From the NCBI RefSeq assembly GCF_030406045.1, contig NZ_CP128988.1:1399438-1463437 (forward strand): DNA of 64,000 nt, read 5' to 3'. This DNA is from Thiohalobacter sp. IOR34 (GTDB lineage Bacteria; Pseudomonadota; Gammaproteobacteria; Thiohalobacterales; Thiohalobacteraceae). This document shows positions 65 to 59,055 of this stretch, piece by piece. The position numbers and the translations under genes were made by a program. How positions within the stretch are numbered: the first letter of the stretch is position 1; each line of letters begins with the position of its first letter. Under the pieces are notes generated by a model, which worked only from the letters and a program-made list of their open reading frames with translations, was not told the origin of the DNA and made no database searches.

Positions 65-317
65 CTAGCGCAGATATTGCACCAAGGATTCGATTCTCAG
101 GGCGGAGCTGGCAAAGCAGCTTGGCCGATCGTCCGCGAAAGCATAGCCGTAGCTATGGTTCAAGGGCGATCGGCCAGGATGCGCAGCCAGATGCGTCCTG
201 AGATCGAATAGGCGCAAAGTGTATCCCGCCGTGAGGAGCCATTTGCGAGCCTCCCGGCCTTGTATGTCAGCCTGCACTCCGATCATGCGGGCCGTCTTGG
301 TGCAATATCCGGGCTAG
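65..317 (-). repeat. 253-bp CTAG-bounded palindromic element, copy 1
   Basis: The element begins and ends with CTAG and has inverted ends of about 23 bp built on GATATTGCACCAAGG / CCTTGGTGCAATATC. Inside it, GGCCGATCG (123-131) pairs with CGATCGGCC (167-175) and CATAGC pairs with GCTATG, giving a long central hairpin. Copies of 252 or 253 bp lie at 11354, 19580 and 37470, and a disrupted one at 58688. This copy is inverted relative to the one at 11354. A 73-codon open frame runs through it, but nothing shows that it is translated. It is probably a non-autonomous mobile or structured-RNA repeat. Confidence 0.85.
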
Positions 318-10708: not shown

Positions 10709-11280
10709 GTGGCTGCCGCAAACCGGCGGGCCAACGGACCCGCTGCGGACAGAGGCTTCCGCGCCGCCGCTGGGCCGGGCACCAGTGGCCCGGGAACCGG
10801 AACCCTGCACAGCTATGCCCAGCGTCAGGCGCTGCAGTTCGATTCGGTCAGTGGCAAATGGCTCCAGCCGACAGGTGACGCAGATATCCTCTACGCTCCC
10901 ACCGATTCCTGCAGTTATGCCGGCGGTGGCACCTTCTGGTACGACCGGAACCTCAACGGCGCCATCGATGAAGCCAGTTCGGATCTGGAGGTGACCAGCC
11001 CCGATCTGATGGGTACCGGGAGCTATGCCTCGATCGAGGCGCGCATCGCAGCCAGCGGCTTCACCAAGCCCGCCTTCTTCGGATCTGGAGGTGACCAGCC
11101 CCGATCTGATGGGCACCGGGAGCTATGCCTCGATCGAGGCGCGCATCGCAGCCAGCGGCTTCACCAAGCCCGCCTTCTTCGGATCTGGAGGTGACCAGCC
11201 CCGATCTGATGGGCACCGGGAGCTATGCCTCGATCGAGGCGCGCATCGCAGCCAGCGGCTTCACCAAGCCCGCCTTCTGA
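10709..11280 (+). pseudogene. Gene fragment broken by a 100-bp triplication
   Basis: From about 10790 the plus strand reads as coding, with TLHSYAQRQALQFDSVSGKW, SCSYAGGGTFWYDRNLNG (an EF-hand-like DRNLNGAID) and a tail ending FTKPAF. No good start or signal peptide is visible. The last 100 bp are present three times; 100 is not a multiple of three, so the frame shifts at each junction and the original FTKPAF-stop is only reached in frame by the third copy. A single-copy ancestor would have ended at the stop now at 11278-11280. The protein family was not recognised; it resembles a calcium-binding surface or pilin-like fragment. Confidence 0.55.
10981..11280 (+). repeat. Three direct 100-bp repeats
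   Basis: GGATCTGGAGGTGACCAGCC begins at 10981, 11081 and 11181. The copies are nearly identical; the first has GGGTACC where the others have GGGCACC. The array lies within the end of a coding-like frame and changes its phase. Confidence 0.95.
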
Positions 11281-11353: not shown

Positions 11354-11606
11354 CTAGCCCGGATATTGCACCAAGGCGGCGCGCATGATCGGAGTGCAGG
11401 CTGACATACAAGGCCGGGAGGTTCACAAATGGCTCCTCACGGCGGCGTACGGTTTGCGCCTATTCGATCTCAGAACGCATCTGGCTTCGCATCCTGGCCG
11501 ATCGCCCTTGAACCATAGCTACGGCTATGCTTCCGCGGGCGATCGGCCAAGCTGCTTTGCCAGCTCCGCCCTGAGAATCGAATCCTTGGTGCAATATCCG
11601 GGCTAG
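11354..11606 (+). repeat. 253-bp CTAG-bounded palindromic element, copy 2
   Basis: The same family as 65-317, in the opposite orientation, with intact ends CTAGCCCGGATATTGCACC and GGTGCAATATCCGGGCTAG. The central GGCCGATCGCCC/GGGCGATCGGCC hairpin is fully paired here. It lies between the gene fragment and the tRNA-Val promoter. Confidence 0.9.
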
Positions 11607-19579: not shown

Positions 19580-19832
19580 CTAGCCCGGATATTGCACCAA
19601 GGCGGCCCGCATGATCGGAGTGCAGGCTGGCATACAAGGCCAGGAGGCTCGCAAATAGGCCCTCGTGGCGGGGTACGGTTTGTGCCTATTCGATTTCAGG
19701 ACGTATCTGGCTGCGCATCCTGGCCGATCCCCCTTGAACCATAGCTATGGCTATGCTTCTACGGGCGATCGACCAAGCTGCTTTGCCAGCTCCGCCCTGA
19801 GAATCGAATCCTTGATGCAATATCCGGGCTAG
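19580..19832 (+). repeat. 253-bp CTAG-bounded palindromic element, copy 3
   Basis: The same length and orientation as the copy at 11354, with intact CTAG ends. It ends 43 bp before the mlaA start codon, so any mlaA promoter must lie in it or upstream of it. Confidence 0.9.
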
Positions 19833-20616: not shown

Positions 20617-20776
20617 CCGCGAAATCCATGGAAAGGATTCTGGTCTTGCAGGCTGGACAGCGCGCACCGTGGCAATGCCAAATTACGCAGCATCACCGGG
20701 CGCTGCCACGATAGGCATTGCCGCCCCCGATCGCGGCCTGGCGACCGCTCCTACGCAAGGGTTCCGCCATGCCTTG

Positions 20777-26981: not shown

Positions 26982-28955
26982 ATGTCCGATACCATAGCCA
27001 AGCTCGAGCACCAGCTGCAGATCCTGCAGGCAGAGCTGCGGCAACGCGAGTACGAGATCGATCTGCTGCGGGAAACGGCCACTGCTGTGGGCAGCGAGCT
27101 GAACCTGGACAAGGTTCTGCAACTGATCGCCGAACGGGCCCGCGAGCTGATCGACGCCGAGACCCTGCTGATCCCCATCCTCAACCGCGAGTGTGACGAA
27201 TACACTTACCGGGCCGGTGCCGGCCGCGGAGTGGAAGAGATCGTCGGTGAATCCCTGCCCCTCGACTTCGGTGTCTGTGGCTGGGTCTGGGAACACAAGC
27301 GCCCCTGGTGGCGGGGCATGCTCGATGAATTGTCGGAAGCGGAGAAGAACCGCTGGGAGAAGGAGGCCGGCACCCTGATCATGGTGCCGCTGATCGGCCG
27401 TGAGCATTTTCTCGGCGGCATCGCCGGCATCAACAAGCGTGGAGGTGAGGAATTCAGCCGCCAGGACCTCAATCTGCTCAGCCTGTTCGCCAGTCAGGTG
27501 GCGATCGCCATCGAAAACGCCATGGCGGTACATCGCCTGGACCAGGCCCGCGAGGAGGCCGAAACCTACCAGAACGAGCTGCAGCAGCTGAATTCACGGC
27601 TGCAGGCCACCAATCAGGAACTGGAATTCCTCTCCCTCTACGACCCCCTTACGGCACTGCCCAATCGCTCGCTGCTGCGTGACCGAATCCAGCAGGGGCT
27701 GGCCGCCGCGCAGCGTGACGGCGGTGGGCTGGCGGTGCTGGTCATCGATCTCGACCGCTTCAAGGAGATCAACGACGCCCTGGGTCACGAGGTGGGCGAC
27801 CAACTGCTGAAACAGGTCAGCAACCGTTTCGCCGCCGAACTGCGGCACAGCGACACCATCGGCCGCCTCGGTGGCGACGAGTTCGCGGTGGTGCTGGCGC
27901 CGGCCGAAACCCAGGCCGTGACCCGGGTGGCCAATGCCCTGCTGGAGGCGCTGGCAACACCCTTCATCATCGGCAGCCACCGGCTGGCGGTGACCGCCAG
28001 CATCGGCATCGCGCTCTACCCCGAGCATGGTGAGGATGCCGGTACGCTGTTCCAGCATGCCGATGCCGCCATGTATGCCGCCAAGCGCGACCGTTGTTCT
28101 GTCGGTTTCTACAACAGCGAAGTGGAAGAGAACTCACTCGGTCGTCTGACCCTGGTCAGCGATCTGCGCCATGCCCTGAACGAATCCGAGTTTGAACTCT
28201 ATTACCAGCCCAAGCTGGATCTCGCCAGCAACAACATCATCGGCGTGGAGGCGCTGGCCCGCTGGCCGCACCGCAAGCGTGGTCTGGTGATGCCGGACAG
28301 TTTCATCCCGGCGCTGGAACAGACCGGCCTGATTCAACAATTCAATTTCTGGGTGCTGGACGCGGCCCTCGAACAGTGTGCCGCCTGGCAGGCGCGGGGC
28401 TGGTCGCTGGGCGTGGCAGTCAACCTGCCGGTGACCAGCCTGCTCGATCCGAACTTCGTCGGGGAACTGGCGCAGCGACTCGAACGCTGGGAACTCTGGG
28501 ACAAACTGACTCTGGAGATCACCGAGAACCTCTTTCTCAGCGACTACGACCGCCTGACCGAGGTCTTCGGTCAACTGCGGGATCTGGGGGTCAATTTCTC
28601 CATCGACGATTTCGGCACCGGTCACTCATCGCTCAGCCGCCTGCGCCAGCTTCCGGTGAGCGAGCTGAAGATCGACCGCAGCTTCGTCATGGGCATGGCG
28701 CAGAATGCAGACGATGCAACCATCGTGCGTTCGACCATCGATCTGGCGCACAACCTGGGGCATGCGGTAGTGGCCGAAGGGGTGGAGAACGACAGCATCC
28801 TGCAGCAGCTGAAACAACTCGACTGCGACATCATCCAGGGTTACCACATCAGCCGTCCGCTGCCGGTGGCCGAGTTCGAGGCCTTCGTCGAGGATGCGGC
28901 CTGGCCCATCGCCAGGCCACAGGAACAGCACCTGGGTTTCCTCAAGCCGGGCTGA
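26982..28955 (+). CDS. GAF-GGDEF-EAL cyclic-di-GMP turnover protein
   Basis: A 657-residue signalling protein for making and breaking cyclic di-GMP. Order: N-terminal coiled coil (1-30), GAF sensor domain (about 35-185), second coiled coil (185-215), GGDEF domain with intact GGDEF (297-301) and an RxxD inhibitory site five residues before it (Arg288, Asp291), and an EAL domain with EAL (423-425), DDFGTGHSSLSRLR and KIDRSFV. Both active sites look complete, so it could be bifunctional. There is no membrane segment, so it is cytoplasmic. ATG 26982 is the likely start; the open frame to 26778 passes through a mobile repeat. The ribosome site is weak. Confidence 0.93.
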   Translation: MSDTIAKLEHQLQILQAELRQREYEIDLLRETATAVGSELNLDKVLQLIAERARELIDAETLLIPILNRECDEYTYRAGAGRGVEEIVGESLPLDFGVCGWVWEHKRPWWRGMLDELSEAEKNRWEKEAGTLIMVPLIGREHFLGGIAGINKRGGEEFSRQDLNLLSLFASQVAIAIENAMAVHRLDQAREEAETYQNELQQLNSRLQATNQELEFLSLYDPLTALPNRSLLRDRIQQGLAAAQRDGGGLAVLVIDLDRFKEINDALGHEVGDQLLKQVSNRFAAELRHSDTIGRLGGDEFAVVLAPAETQAVTRVANALLEALATPFIIGSHRLAVTASIGIALYPEHGEDAGTLFQHADAAMYAAKRDRCSVGFYNSEVEENSLGRLTLVSDLRHALNESEFELYYQPKLDLASNNIIGVEALARWPHRKRGLVMPDSFIPALEQTGLIQQFNFWVLDAALEQCAAWQARGWSLGVAVNLPVTSLLDPNFVGELAQRLERWELWDKLTLEITENLFLSDYDRLTEVFGQLRDLGVNFSIDDFGTGHSSLSRLRQLPVSELKIDRSFVMGMAQNADDATIVRSTIDLAHNLGHAVVAEGVENDSILQQLKQLDCDIIQGYHISRPLPVAEFEAFVEDAAWPIARPQEQHLGFLKPG

Positions 28956-29801
28956 TCGCGGCTTGGCGACCGCTCCTAGGTGAGGGTTCCGTGCTGCCTT
29001 GGCAGGGGCGGTGACCACCCCTGGAAGCATCGGGCGGACGCGCTCCGCCGTGAATCAGAAAAATCCTTTTCGTGGATTTCGCGGATTTCGTGGCTATCCC
29101 GTCTCAAGCTGGCCGGCGATCGCGGCCTGGCGACCGCTCCTACGTGAGGGTTCCGCGCTGCCTTGGCAGGGGCGGTGACCACCCCTGGAAGCATCGGGCG
29201 GACGCGCTCCGCCGTGAATCAGAAAAATCCTTTTCGTGGATTTCGCGGATTTCGTGGCCATCCTGTCTCAAGCTGGCCGGCGATCGCGGCCTGGCGACCG
29301 CTCCTAGGTGAGGGTTCCGCGCTGCCTTGGCAGGGGCGGTGACCACCCCTGGAAGCATCGGGCGGACACGCTCCGCCGTGAATCAGAAAAATCCTTTTCG
29401 TGGATTTCGCGGATTTCGTGGCCATCCTGTCTCAAGCTGGCCGGCGATCGCGGCCTGGCGACCGCTCCTAGGTGAGGGTTCCGCGCTGCCTTGGCAGGGG
29501 CGGTGACCACCCCTGGAAGCATCGGGCGGACACGCTCCGCCGTGAATCAGAAAAATCCTTTTCGTGGATTTCGCGGATTTCGTGGCCATCCTGTCTCAAG
29601 CTGGCCGGCGATCGCGGCCTGGCGACCGCTCCTAGGTGAGGGTTCCGTGCTGCCTTGGCAGGGGCACTGACCACCCTTGGAAGCATCGGGCGGACGCGCT
29701 CCGCCGTGAATCAGAAAAATCCTTTTCGTGGATTTCGCGGATTTCGTGGCCATCCTGTCTCAAGCTGGCCGGCGATCGCGGCCTGGCGGCCGCTCCTACA
29801 G
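28954..29801. repeat. Tandem array of five 164-bp units
   Basis: GATCGCGGC starts at 28954, 29118, 29282, 29446, 29610 and 29774, an exact 164-bp period with very few substitutions; the sixth copy is cut to 28 bp. Each unit holds a REP-like palindrome (GATCGCGGCCTGGCGACCGC), a GC-rich middle and a CGTGGATTTCGCGGATTTCG end. The 68-72-codon open frames in each unit are by-products of the repeat. The array lies between two convergent genes. Confidence 0.95.
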
Positions 29802-29806
29802 GCGTT

Positions 29807-30856
29807 TCAGCAGGGCTCGGAGAAGGGGTAGGGCAGATCGCGGAATTCCAGGCGCGGACCCTCAGGGCTGTCGAGATGGATCTGGCCGGCGTCGGCGCCG
29901 CTGATCTGGATCACGGCCAGCAGCAGGTAGCCACCATCGGGATGCGGCCGCGCCTCGACGATCTTGCCGGCGCTCTGTTCCCCGTTGTCCGGGGTGTATA
30001 GCTCGTCGCCGGGTTGCGGGGCCTGTTCGGCGTCCACCCAGGCCAGGTACATGCGCCGCTTGAGCTTGCCGAGATACTGCATGCGGGCCACCACTTCCTG
30101 ACCGGGATAGCAGCCCTTCTTGAAACTGACCCCGCCGACCAGATGCAGATTGACCATCTGCGGCACAAAGGCCTCGCTGGTCTGCGGGTAGATGACGGGC
30201 AGGCCGGCGGCGACGTTGAGCAGTCCCCAGGCCGGCTCGCCGACCGGGGCAAAACGCACATTGAGGCCGTCCCAGAGCCTCTTCAGTTCGTCCAGCGGAC
30301 CGTAGATCTCGTAGCGGGGGTGGATGCCGGGGATGCGCAGCACCGTGCACAGTTGCTGGCTGACCACCTCATCGACCGCCTGGGGTAAGCGATCGAGCAG
30401 GTTCTCCAGTTCCCGGGGCGCATCGTCGCCGGAGACACCGATGTGCACGAAGGTGTCGGTGACCTCCTCCAGGGTGACGGCAGCGCGCAGCACGAACATC
30501 TGCAGCCGCTTGAGGATGGGCTCGGCCAGTTCCATGGGCAGCGCCAGGTAATAGATCCCGTCGCGCTGGAATACCCGGAAGGTGGCCAGGATGCGTCCCT
30601 TGGGGTTGCAGTAGCTGCTCAGCTGGCTGTGTTCCGGGGTCACCTCGCGGATGTCATTGCTCAGCTGGCCCTGGAGAAACTCGGCGGCGTCCTCGCCGTG
30701 CACGGCGATCAGCGCCAGATGCGACAGGTCGGCAAAGACATTGCCGGTCAGGGCCACGCTCAGTTCCCGCTTCAGGCTGCCGTAGCTGCCCACCTTGCCG
30801 GTGTCGTCGAACTCGGCGCCCGCGGCCTCGAGAAAGGTTTTCCACTCGGCTTTCAT
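29807..30856 (-). CDS. ygfZ: YgfZ, folate-binding Fe-S cluster maintenance protein
   Basis: YgfZ (IBA57-like) uses tetrahydrofolate to support assembly or repair of certain 4Fe-4S proteins. The 349-residue GcvT-fold protein has LSNDIREVTPEHSQLSSYCNPKGRI in the folate domain and the signature KKGCYPGQEVVARMQYLGKLKRR with its essential Cys. ATG 30856 gives MKAEWKTFL. It is divergent from sdhCDAB, whose SdhB carries three Fe-S clusters, a context that fits. Confidence 0.95.
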   Translation of the reverse strand: MKAEWKTFLEAAGAEFDDTGKVGSYGSLKRELSVALTGNVFADLSHLALIAVHGEDAAEFLQGQLSNDIREVTPEHSQLSSYCNPKGRILATFRVFQRDGIYYLALPMELAEPILKRLQMFVLRAAVTLEEVTDTFVHIGVSGDDAPRELENLLDRLPQAVDEVVSQQLCTVLRIPGIHPRYEIYGPLDELKRLWDGLNVRFAPVGEPAWGLLNVAAGLPVIYPQTSEAFVPQMVNLHLVGGVSFKKGCYPGQEVVARMQYLGKLKRRMYLAWVDAEQAPQPGDELYTPDNGEQSAGKIVEARPHPDGGYLLLAVIQISGADAGQIHLDSPEGPRLEFRDLPYPFSEPC

Positions 30857-36914: not shown

Positions 36915-37465
36915 TCGAACGGCCCGCCGCGGACGAGATCTGGCTGCATGTCAGCCTCGCGGAGCAGCGCCTGCGGCGCCTGTGTGGCGAGCGGGTGCTG
37001 GAGGACTATGCCGTGTCGACGGCGCTGCGCGGGGCCGGGGAAGCCTTCGGCAGCGAACGGACACCGCGCGGCTGGCACCGGGTGCGGCTGCGCATCGGTG
37101 CCGGCTGCCCGCCGGACACGGTGTTCGTGGCCCGCCGTCCCAGCGGCGAGCGCTACCGCCCGGCGCTGGCCGCCCGCCATCCCCAACGTGACTGGATCCT
37201 CTGCCGTATCCTCTGGCTGACCGGACTCGAAGTGGGGCGCAACCGCGGTGGTGGGGTCGACAGCCTGCGGCGCTTCATCTACATCCACGGCTGCCCGGAC
37301 AGCGAACCCATGGGTGTGCCGCGCTCGCATGGCTGCATCCGCATGCGCAACGCCGAGCTGCTCGAACTCTTCGAGCGCGTGCCGCTTGGTTGCCGGGTGC
37401 TGATCGAGGAGGGGGCTTTCGACATACCCTCAGGATCATTCGCCAAGCCACTGAAAGAGAAATAG
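36911..37465 (+). CDS. L,D-transpeptidase (YkuD) family protein
   Basis: A 184-residue YkuD-domain protein with the catalytic pattern HGCPDSEPMGVPRSHGCIRM (nucleophile Cys in SHGCIRM, about 142-147). Family members cross-link peptidoglycan or attach proteins to it. No signal peptide is visible at the N-terminus (MIERPAADEIWLHVSLAEQ), so how it reaches the periplasm is unclear; a cytoplasmic role in recycling is possible. ATG 36911 overlaps the preceding stop as ATGA. Confidence 0.88.
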   Translation: MIERPAADEIWLHVSLAEQRLRRLCGERVLEDYAVSTALRGAGEAFGSERTPRGWHRVRLRIGAGCPPDTVFVARRPSGERYRPALAARHPQRDWILCRILWLTGLEVGRNRGGGVDSLRRFIYIHGCPDSEPMGVPRSHGCIRMRNAELLELFERVPLGCRVLIEEGAFDIPSGSFAKPLKEK

Positions 37466-37469
37466 ACTT

Positions 37470-37721
37470 ATCCCGTCCATTGCACAATGGCGGCGCGTAA
37501 AAAACTGAGGCTCAGGCGGGAATGAAAGGAGGGGAGGACCATGCAACAGCCGGGGTGGCGAGTTACACTTCGCGCCTATTCGATTTCAGGCCGAATCGGG
37601 CTGCGCATCTTGGGCGATCCCCCTCGAGCCATAGCAATGACTATGGCTTTTCGGTCGATCGTCCAACCTGCCTTGCCGGATTCGCCCTGAGAACCGAATC
37701 CCTGGTGCAATAGACGGGATA
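37470..37721 (+). repeat. 252-bp palindromic element, diverged copy 4
   Basis: The ends are TATCCCGTC.ATTGCAC and GTGCAATAGACGGGATA, altered together compared with TAGCCCGGATATTGCAC of the other copies, so end pairing is preserved. Interior landmarks (GCGCCTATTCGATTTCAGG, CCATAGC, CCCTGAGAACCGAATCC) align with copies 1-3. It separates the L,D-transpeptidase from the permease gene by only 4-8 bp on each side. Confidence 0.8.
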
Positions 37722-37728
37722 CCCGATC

Positions 37729-38658
37729 ATGCTCTCGGCACTGCTGCAACGGCTGTTCACCTCCGGTCTCGTCATCCTCGGCGTGGTGTTGCTGGTGTTC
37801 CTGCTCATCCACCTCATCCCCGGCGACCCGGTGGACGTGATGCTGGGCGAGACGGCACCGGCCGCCGACCGTGAGGCCCTGCGTCACAGCCTCGGTCTGG
37901 ACCGGCCGATCGGCGTCCAGCTGGCCGAATACCTCGCCGGTCTGGCGCGTCTCGATCTCGGCCAGTCGCTGCATGCCCGCCGCCCGATCAGCGCGCTGCT
38001 GGCGGAGCGCATCCCCGCCACCGCCGAACTGGCCCTGATCAGCCTTGGCGTAACCCTGCTGCTGGCCCTGCCGCTGGGGCTACTGGCGGCGGCCCGCCGC
38101 GACACGGCCTGGGATCAGGCGGCGACGGCCTTTTCCCTGGCCGGGGTGTCCATCCCCAACTTCTGGCTCGGTCCGCTGCTGATCCTGGTGTTCTCCCTCG
38201 GCCTCGGCTGGTTCCCGATCAGCGGCCGCGAGGCGCCTGGCTCGGTGGTGTTGCCGGCACTGACACTGGGGCTGTCGCTGGCGGCGATCCTGGCACGGAT
38301 GATCCGCAGCAGCCTGCTGGAGGTACTGGGCGAGGATTACATCCGCACCGCCCGCGCCAAGGGGCTGGACAGGCGCCAGGTCCTGCTGCGCCATGCCCTG
38401 CCCAATGCCCTGTTGCCGGTGATCACGGTGCTCGGTCTGCAGCTCGGCACCCTGCTCGGCGGAGCGGTGATCACCGAGACCATCTTCGCCTGGCCGGGCA
38501 TCGGCCTGCTCACCATCGAGGCCATCCAGAGCCGCGACTATCCGGTGGTGCAGGCATGCGTGCTGCTGATCAGTGTCACCTATGTGGTGGTCAACGCCCT
38601 GACCGACGTGCTCTACGCATGGATCGATCCGCGGATCCGTTTGGGGGGACGAGGCTGA
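37729..38658 (+). CDS. Peptide ABC transporter permease, DppB/OppB type
   Basis: A 309-residue inner-membrane permease with six predicted membrane segments. The family N-terminus (LLQRLFTSGLVILGVVLLVFLLIHLIPGDPVDVMLG) and the ATPase-contact EAA loop EDYIRTARAKGLDRRQVLLRHALPNALLPV are clear. It forms a pair with the next gene, overlapping it by one base, and probably works with the binding protein at 35406. Confidence 0.95.
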   Translation: MLSALLQRLFTSGLVILGVVLLVFLLIHLIPGDPVDVMLGETAPAADREALRHSLGLDRPIGVQLAEYLAGLARLDLGQSLHARRPISALLAERIPATAELALISLGVTLLLALPLGLLAAARRDTAWDQAATAFSLAGVSIPNFWLGPLLILVFSLGLGWFPISGREAPGSVVLPALTLGLSLAAILARMIRSSLLEVLGEDYIRTARAKGLDRRQVLLRHALPNALLPVITVLGLQLGTLLGGAVITETIFAWPGIGLLTIEAIQSRDYPVVQACVLLISVTYVVVNALTDVLYAWIDPRIRLGGRG

Positions 38659-45037: not shown

Positions 45038-45125
45038 AACCCGGCAACTAAACCGGCAACTAAATATGCCGTGTTCAGGGCTTCAGGCCTGTTGCGGGAC
45101 AAGGCGCGGCCCGCGGGGGCGCCCG
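45036..45125. repeat. Degenerate relative of the 2230-2513 element
   Basis: ATTAACCCGGC, then CCGTGTTCAGGGCTTC, GGGACAAG and GGCCCGC occur in the same order as in the reverse complement of the right end at 2420-2513. Only one end is present and AACTAAACCGGC is duplicated near the start, so it is a truncated copy. Confidence 0.6.
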
Positions 45126-45201
45126 ATCGCGGCCTGGAGGCCGCTCCTACCAGGGTGCCGCCATGCCCGTAGGAGCGGCCTCCAGGCCGCGATCGACGTG
45201 G
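45124..45201. repeat. BIME: two inverted REP units
   Basis: CGATCGCGGCCTGGAGGCCG with CTCCTAC, a 20-bp spacer, and its near-perfect reverse complement ending CAGGCCGCGATCG. It can form one long hairpin or two small ones. It may end csiV transcription, which comes from the other side. Confidence 0.8.
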
Positions 45202-58687: not shown

Positions 58688-59055
58688 CTAGCCCGGATAT
58701 TGCGTCAAGGCAGGCTCCGTGGGCCAAGGTGGCAGGATGGCGCGGTACCCCTTGCGCCCCGATCGCGGCCTGGAGACCGCTCCTACGCCAACACATTGTG
58801 CCGCCATGCCCCGTAGGAGCGGCCTCCAGGCCGTGATGGGGATTGCCACCAAAATCGCGGCGTGGACGCCGCTCCTACAGGGTAGGGCGGAACCTCTTGT
58901 TTTGTAGGAGCGGCCTCCAGGCCGCGATCGGGGGGTCCACGGCGGGCAATGCCCGGAATCAATCGAACAGACACAAAGCCGGGTTACGAGTTCCCGATCC
59001 ATTTGCCAGCCTGCACGCCGGTCATGCGCGCCGCCTTGGTGCAATATCCGGGCTT
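58688..59055 (+). repeat. Disrupted copy 5 of the palindromic element with REP insert
   Basis: The left end CTAGCCCGGATATTGC (58688) and right end CTTGGTGCAATATCCGGGCT (to 59055) match the 253-bp family. The middle is replaced by REP palindromes and only fragments of the original interior remain (CAGCCTGCACGCCGGTCATG). It is 368 bp long. Confidence 0.7.
58758..58929. repeat. Cluster of four REP palindromes
   Basis: REP units at about 58758, 58812, 58855 and 58903 alternate in orientation: GATCGCGGCCTGGAGACCGC, then GTAGGAGCGGCCTCCAGGCC, an AATCGCGGCGTGGACGCCGC variant, and GTAGGAGCGGCCTCCAGGCC again. They lie within the disrupted 253-bp element. Confidence 0.85.

Follow-up and report, generated by a model that had tools for sequence, protein, structure and literature searches.

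Bacterial MITEs are usually regarded as leftovers of one IS. The repeat family described here is, judged from its sequence, a MITE, i.e. a non-autonomous transposon, and several described systems come close to it. REP elements and REPINs are likewise palindromic and present in many copies; to our knowledge, however, they belong with another transposase class and show no target duplication of the kind found for the MITE. The prokaryotic MITEs Correia, ERIC, QMITE and Chunjie resemble it more closely: in a review (PMC10969869), such elements are described as short, devoid of a transposase, bounded by inverted ends and duplications, often present in many copies, often intergenic, and able to form a stem-loop. 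The present family differs from them by its proposed IS1380 partner and by the covariation of its hairpin across many families; IS1380 is not mentioned in the text of that review (PMC10969869).

Other comparisons concern single families. The Tn3-derived TIMEs of Pseudomonas are similar in size (~260 bp) and have conserved short blocks and similar predicted core folds, but they have Tn3-type ends and 5-6-bp duplications and are usually single copy (PMC4133298). MITEPye1 of Paracoccus yeei is also non-autonomous, with a proposed IS partner and a stem-loop; it differs by its IS1182 ends and its 1-3 chromosomal copies (PMC11578231). The MITEs of the gammaproteobacterium Thiomargarita have 10-bp duplications or TATAG repeats, unlike the present family (PMC4853749). 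As to IS1380 itself, the published elements IS1247 and ISPsp9 are listed with 5-bp duplications (PMC3281130, PMC4133298), and piggyBac, for which IS1380 has been used as an outgroup, has TTAA targets and ends mostly starting with CCC (PMC10813416). Within the open-licence literature searched, we found neither a description of a MITE with IS1380 ends nor the letters of four variants of the terminal repeat. The novelty of an IS1380-dependent MITE family is therefore provisional.

Organization of the element

The window, i.e. the whole 64,000-nucleotide stretch of Thiohalobacter sp. IOR34 DNA that was analysed, contains four copies, at 65, 11354, 19580 and 37470, of 253, 253, 253 and 252 bp; an earlier note had reported these copies, which are real and have the coordinates it gave. 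The copy at 11354 serves as reference, and its parts are as follows (window coordinates):

11354..11606, plus strand: reference copy, 245-bp MITE with its CTAG target duplications
11354..11357, unstranded: left target site duplication CTAG, from duplication statistics over 124 elements
11358..11376, plus strand: left terminal inverted repeat CCCGGATATTGCACCAAGG, same end type on IS1380 elements
11377..11461, plus strand: left domain, variable, with a weak closing stem (alignment, complementarity)
11462..11583, plus strand: central hairpin (imperfect, 122 nt) with covariation between species
11584..11602, minus strand: right terminal inverted repeat, whose minus-strand reading is CCCGGATATTGCACCAAGG
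11603..11606, unstranded: right target site duplication CTAG, from duplication statistics over 124 elements

The left domain starts with CGGC in the reference copy and with CGGA in others, and ends in a conserved block that reads GTACGGTTTGCGCC in the reference copy and GTTACAGTTTGTCC in others. Among the ORFs that start within the reference copy, the longest has 73 aa. Three near-identical 100-bp tandem repeats lie immediately before this copy, at window 10978-11278.

The other members of the family in the window are:

65..317, minus strand: copy 1, ~55 bp from tRNA-Asn; hairpin 88-209
19580..19832, plus strand: copy 3, ~150 bp after tRNA-Pro; hairpin 19688-19809
37470..37721, plus strand: copy 4, diverged, with a matched end change; hairpin 37578-37699
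58692..59052, unstranded: hairpin-less relative of 361 bp, with both terminal repeats and a left-domain remnant

The copy at 37470 carries, as the earlier note had pointed out, the same change at both ends (CCCGTC replacing CCCGGA). It is flanked by two ORFs of the same direction, one with its end at 37465 and the other with its start at 37729, and no target duplication was seen when its flanks were inspected. The copy described earlier as broken, at 58688, lacks the hairpin, and its extent from repeat to repeat is 58692-59052; its interior consists of REP-like palindromes and its flanks are CTAG and CTTG. REP-like GATCGCGGCCTGGAGGCCGCTCCTAC repeats, which also fill this element, occur at window 45103-45150, 58739-58786, 522-569 and 20707-20754. 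Two tandem arrays were also seen in the window: five in-register copies of a unit that includes REP-like sequence, with a period of 164 bp (28954-29909), and an array with a 45-bp period for which 8 in-register copies are listed (574-1021).

Target duplications, copy number and length

The four bases that flank the copies vary from copy to copy and are YTAR-like (CTAG, CTAA, CTAT/ATAG, TTAG, TTAA, CTTG and CAAG were seen). They are identical at both ends in 59/124 repeat-bounded elements (39/59 for the elements of the Thiohalobacter genome in this count) and differ by one base in 42/124, while the next four bases outward, used as a control, are identical in 1/124 (Fisher p about 1e-20). Since the outermost four bases differ between copies and often agree within one, the element proper is 245 bp long, and the length of 253 bp counts two duplications; the CTAG ends counted into it in the first three window copies are target duplications.

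The family that the earlier note had proposed from five copies in the window is far larger in the genome (2.96 Mb, one contig): hairpin copies occupy at least 112 distinct places (53 plus, 59 minus), a lower bound obtained from 150 scored candidates, and the terminal core gives 192+199 = 391 matches at ≤2 mismatches, compared with 0 for the reversed pattern. In the stretches retrieved with the 253-bp query, 40 copies are near-complete. The left and right repeats agree at ≥14/19 positions in 96/112 hairpin places. With ends called at the best offset, copies are 245 bp long in 59/112 cases and 244-246 bp long in 88/112. 'Strictly fixed', as the length had been called, is thus too strong genome-wide. 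Two copies have 317 bp; in both, a GC-rich palindrome of ~72 bp (L028 ~1612-1684; L064, G000 ~2595826-2595898) is inserted at one and the same position and looks like a second mobile palindrome nested in the MITE; by eye, a similar block is present in a Chromatiales element (L126 6639-7005). Shorter elements and hairpin-less elements also exist.

Compared with their consensus, the 40 near-complete copies have 939 substitutions but 11 indel events, a count that admitted only copies of 240-260 bp and so favours few indels. For 93 copies of 242-248 bp the figures are 4166 substitutions and 42 indel events, shared changes being counted once per copy. Three copies form a tandem trio (G000 662377-662992) with an exact hairpin spacing of 247 bp and ~99% likeness. 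Plasmids and phages searched with the 253-bp element gave no match, and the 2 end-pattern matches found in viral contigs were taken as chance, neither having a YTAR flank.

Genomic context and age of the copies

According to a crude GC3-based ORF caller, 31/35 copies are intergenic; the remaining 4/35 overlap a called ORF, and some of these ORFs may be false calls. The nearest called gene lies at a median distance of 13 bp, with flanking genes in every relative orientation, and the closeness to genes that had been noticed in the window holds beyond it, as 24 of the 31 intergenic copies are ≤60 bp from a called gene. A tRNA is present within 300 bp of 5/112 copies, compared with 1.2 expected under uniform placement (p = 0.0075). 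We do not claim a tRNA association, because three of the five belong to the window and a uniform model takes no account of the bias towards intergenic sites.

The earlier note had also envisaged a recent spread of one element. Spread itself is supported by the target duplications, the shared ends and the presence of a partner IS elsewhere; recency is not. No two of the 93 copies with both ends are identical, and the divergence from the nearest neighbour ranges from 0.8 to 23% (median 4.1%); 7 copies are <2% from their neighbour, three of them being the tandem trio. In the tree of these copies, the median terminal branch is 0.026 and 2 branches are near zero.

Covariation of the hairpin across species

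Elements from different genomes share one plan: between two terminal repeats lie first a variable left arm, which in many cases closes with a block like GTTACAGTTTGTCC, and then an extended imperfect hairpin whose apex is CATAGC..GCTATG. The fold z-score of the element is -8.5 as DNA and -10.3 as RNA. The stems fall into two structural classes, A and B, each represented by one alignment: A3 for class A (15 rows from 10 genomes, 3 rows being from the Thiohalobacter genome) and A4 for class B (11 rows from 4 genomes). The rows of both were hand-picked from 77 candidates in 23 clusters, and some are second members of a cluster.

The earlier note had suggested a covariance analysis. Double changes that keep pairing were found in 21/59 pairs of A3 and in 20/58 pairs of A4, with 94.1% and 93.9% of cells paired, respectively, the structures having been predicted from the same alignments in which the pairs were counted. 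A3 contains 64 double-change cells, compared with a mean of 20.3 after shuffling and 1-7 when the partners are slid; the corresponding values for A4 are 44, 12.8 and 2-7. One of the five measures, the number of further pair types, is not above shuffles in A3 (319/500 as high); in A4, 20/500 shuffles are as high. The closing stem of the left arm is weak, the mean longest complementary run being 5.0 compared with 3.7 after shuffling (26 rows).

A covariance model built from the hairpin alone, without the terminal repeats, gave the 112 places of the Thiohalobacter genome and matched in 21/369 genomes of the gammaproteobacterial class, which carry 18 family labels, and, in a sample of the phylum, in 2/398 genomes (the Thiohalobacter genome and one more); surveys of >40 genomes had stricter filters, so that these counts are lower bounds. 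The hairpin therefore looks rare outside some gammaproteobacterial lineages. The class A model detects several class B elements weakly (24-33 bits). Among 29 loci outside the Thiohalobacter genome, the predicted ends hold inverted repeats (≥14/19) in 21, where the left repeat starts 97-105 nt upstream; one of the 21, L239, was cut to 15 bases and was counted at 14 of the 15 bases present. Five of the 8 other loci fail (L225, L233, L243, L245, L246) and 3 stop at contig ends. A sequence used to train the model is present in one of the 29 loci alone, L230, which is among the 21. The terminal repeats differ between genomes (CCCGGATATTTCATGGAGA, CCCGCATGTCGCACGAAGG, CCTGGATAATTCATGCAGG) and match closely within an element; the two ends thus change jointly around an unchanged plan. 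The interior, a ~85-nt left arm plus the 122-nt hairpin, is not arbitrary filler.

IS1380-family elements with terminal repeats of the same type

An end-pattern scan of genome contigs yielded at least 117 loci, largely in gammaproteobacterial MAGs; the matches listed also include Thioalkalivibrio, Rhodobacteraceae, Magnetococcales and a few others. Among the matches listed, end pairs with identical duplications mostly delimit elements 80-370 bp in length; a transposase is present in two longer ones. One, in a Magnetococcales MAG (L218), is a 1568-bp element flanked by CTAT/CTAT that encodes a 436-aa transposase scoring 542 bits with PF13701 and 394 bits with NF033539, the NCBI IS1380 model (cut-off 180). 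The other, in an uncultured gammaproteobacterium (L147), is 1631 bp long, is flanked by CTAG/CTAG and encodes a 448-aa transposase (546 and 418 bits with the same two models, cut-off 180). G278, G294 and G365 have further IS1380 elements that show CTAG and ends of the CCCG type; several other IS1380 elements have unrelated ends. The unusual end CCCGGATTTCTC, which replaces CCCGGATATTGC, is common to an IS1380 element and two MITE copies of one genome, G350. Three MITE ends were seen there, two matching the variant exactly and one being off by a base; this matched variant is known from G350 alone.

The complete IS1380 elements found here thus resemble the MITE in their CCCG-type repeats and YTAR-like 4-bp duplications. 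The MITE differs from them by the absence of a transposase gene and by its added structured interior, the two complete elements and the MITE having only the ~19 bp of the ends in common. The hairpin was found in 0/32 loci around IS1380-type genes, and genomes with the MITE have an IS1380-type match (E≤1e-20) in 4/21 cases, compared with 28/348 of the others, a weak association (p = 0.10). No IS1380 transposase over the cut-off was found in the Thiohalobacter genome, where PF13701 matches only four IS4-type genes, below the cut-off, and none lies inside the MITE. A full transposon with the same ends, which the earlier note had proposed to look for, is therefore represented by two IS1380-family elements in other bacteria and by none in the genome of origin. 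The MITE would depend on the IS1380 family without being one of its insertion sequences.

The YTAR target would also suggest IS701 or IS5 as partner. PF13546 matches in 0/11 family genomes. PF05598 and PF01609 detect IS5- and IS4-type transposases in 4/11 genomes each, but in the loci concerned (L076-L105) no matching ends flank these genes, the only end pairs being MITE copies beside a transposase (L101, L104). The 1303-bp end pairing of L146 spans two adjacent MITEs, from the outer end of one to that of the other.

Where selection acted and which explanation fits best

On the tree of the 93 copies of the Thiohalobacter genome, the changes/site on internal and terminal branches, respectively, are 0.45 and 1.84 for the terminal repeats, 0.85 and 1.56 for the hairpin stems, 1.82 and 2.83 for the unpaired hairpin sites, and 2.42 and 3.08 for the left arm. 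The contrast is steepest for the terminal repeats, as expected if they are needed for jumping only: they look constrained mainly before insertion, while the stems look constrained throughout, more mildly. On terminal branches, however, the stems show 100 breaks of Watson-Crick pairs (45 A-C, 35 G-T, 20 other) compared with 2 pair-keeping double changes, and since nearly all these changes are uncompensated, selection on resident copies is not clear. Our conclusion is that the transposing lineage maintained pairing, which resident copies do not clearly maintain. Selection on structure, which the earlier note had suggested, is accordingly supported across species by the double changes in A3 and A4 and is not supported within the genome. 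The end change of the 37470 copy adds little by itself: for the two main end variants a match is common, as the two ends of an element agree at position 5 in 78/96 copies and at position 15 in 87/96, but at the remaining positions most changes affect one end only (63, compared with 17 two-sided changes, of which 15 have the same letter).

In our judgement, the family is probably an IS1380-mobilised MITE whose transposase has been lost and whose hairpin is a selected cis-acting DNA structure. An IS1380 transposase acting in trans would have recognised both ends and inserted the element at YTAR sites, for the most part in narrow gaps between genes; this transposase would later have been lost from the Thiohalobacter genome, the copies decaying since. 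The hairpin may act in cis, as a cruciform or a single-strand fold, to aid transposition or tolerance of the element; selection on it would have operated in the transposing lineage and is no longer clear in resident copies. A more speculative extension, to which we give about one chance in three, is that a long-lived gene-less lineage keeps a working hairpin and swaps its ends to follow the available IS1380 transposase.

The alternative that survives best, although we think it unlikely, is an ordinary MITE whose interior is conserved by descent alone and whose hairpin has no role. MITEs typically form stem-loops, as stated in a review (PMC10969869), and the IS1380 link requires the ends alone; yet the position and pairing of the hairpin persist, across 18 family labels, despite changed sequence and changed ends. 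The paired changes might also be mutational. Template switching in quasi-palindromes, in which one arm is copied onto the other, makes double changes without selection, and the stems do change less on terminal branches (1.56/site) than the left arm (3.08) or the unpaired hairpin sites (2.83). Such arm correction should nonetheless erase internal loops, which are unpaired at the same places across the aligned genomes, and terminal branches carry 2 pair-keeping double changes against 100 single breaks, which makes this explanation quite unlikely.

We regard as improbable that the interior is a structured RNA (a small RNA or a mobile RNA element) whose pairing is selected as RNA. Neither strand consistently favours G-U over A-C: A3 has 11 GT against 31 AC cells and alone leans to A-C (p = 0.003, the cells not being independent), A4 31 against 19, and terminal changes in the Thiohalobacter genome 35 against 45. 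Rfam 15 gave no match to the element at gathering or at E≤1, and the genes flanking the copies occur in all relative orientations. These observations outweigh the strong predicted RNA fold (z -10.3), the conservation of the asymmetric block before the hairpin, and the double changes that keep pairs in A3 and A4.

The terminal repeat, read outwards, encodes VQYPG followed by a TAG/TAA stop that lies in the target duplication (e.g. window 11584-11606). A short protein-coding frame ending in this way (..VQYPG-stop) is nevertheless very improbable. In 10/15 rows of A3 this frame stays open across the hairpin, with similar residues, and third positions are somewhat more variable (0.32 compared with 0.21-0.24, 13 rows), but a stop or shift breaks it in the 5 other rows, only 17/96 copies are stop-free over their whole length, the hairpins of the Thiohalobacter copies show no codon-position signal (12.8, 11.9, 10.5), and the mirror frame of the opposite strand scores equally. 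Given the last two observations, we treat the VQYPG frame as very probably a by-product of the palindrome. A palindrome of the REP/REPIN kind, mobilised by a RAYT (Y1 transposase), would account for high-copy palindromes in intergenic gaps, but has almost no chance of being correct, as the 4-bp duplications and 19-bp terminal repeats are shared with DDE-type IS1380 elements and would not fit RAYT chemistry.

Significance

For the IS1380 family, the IS1380-mobilised MITE proposed here would mean the gain of a large set of dependents. Because the interior plan recurs with compensating changes while the ends differ, the family offers natural compensatory mutants with which a contribution of an internal hairpin to DDE-mediated transposition could be tested. 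If ends have indeed been swapped around a hairpin that was kept, the element would be a MITE with an inherited functional core, and not a dead deletion product.
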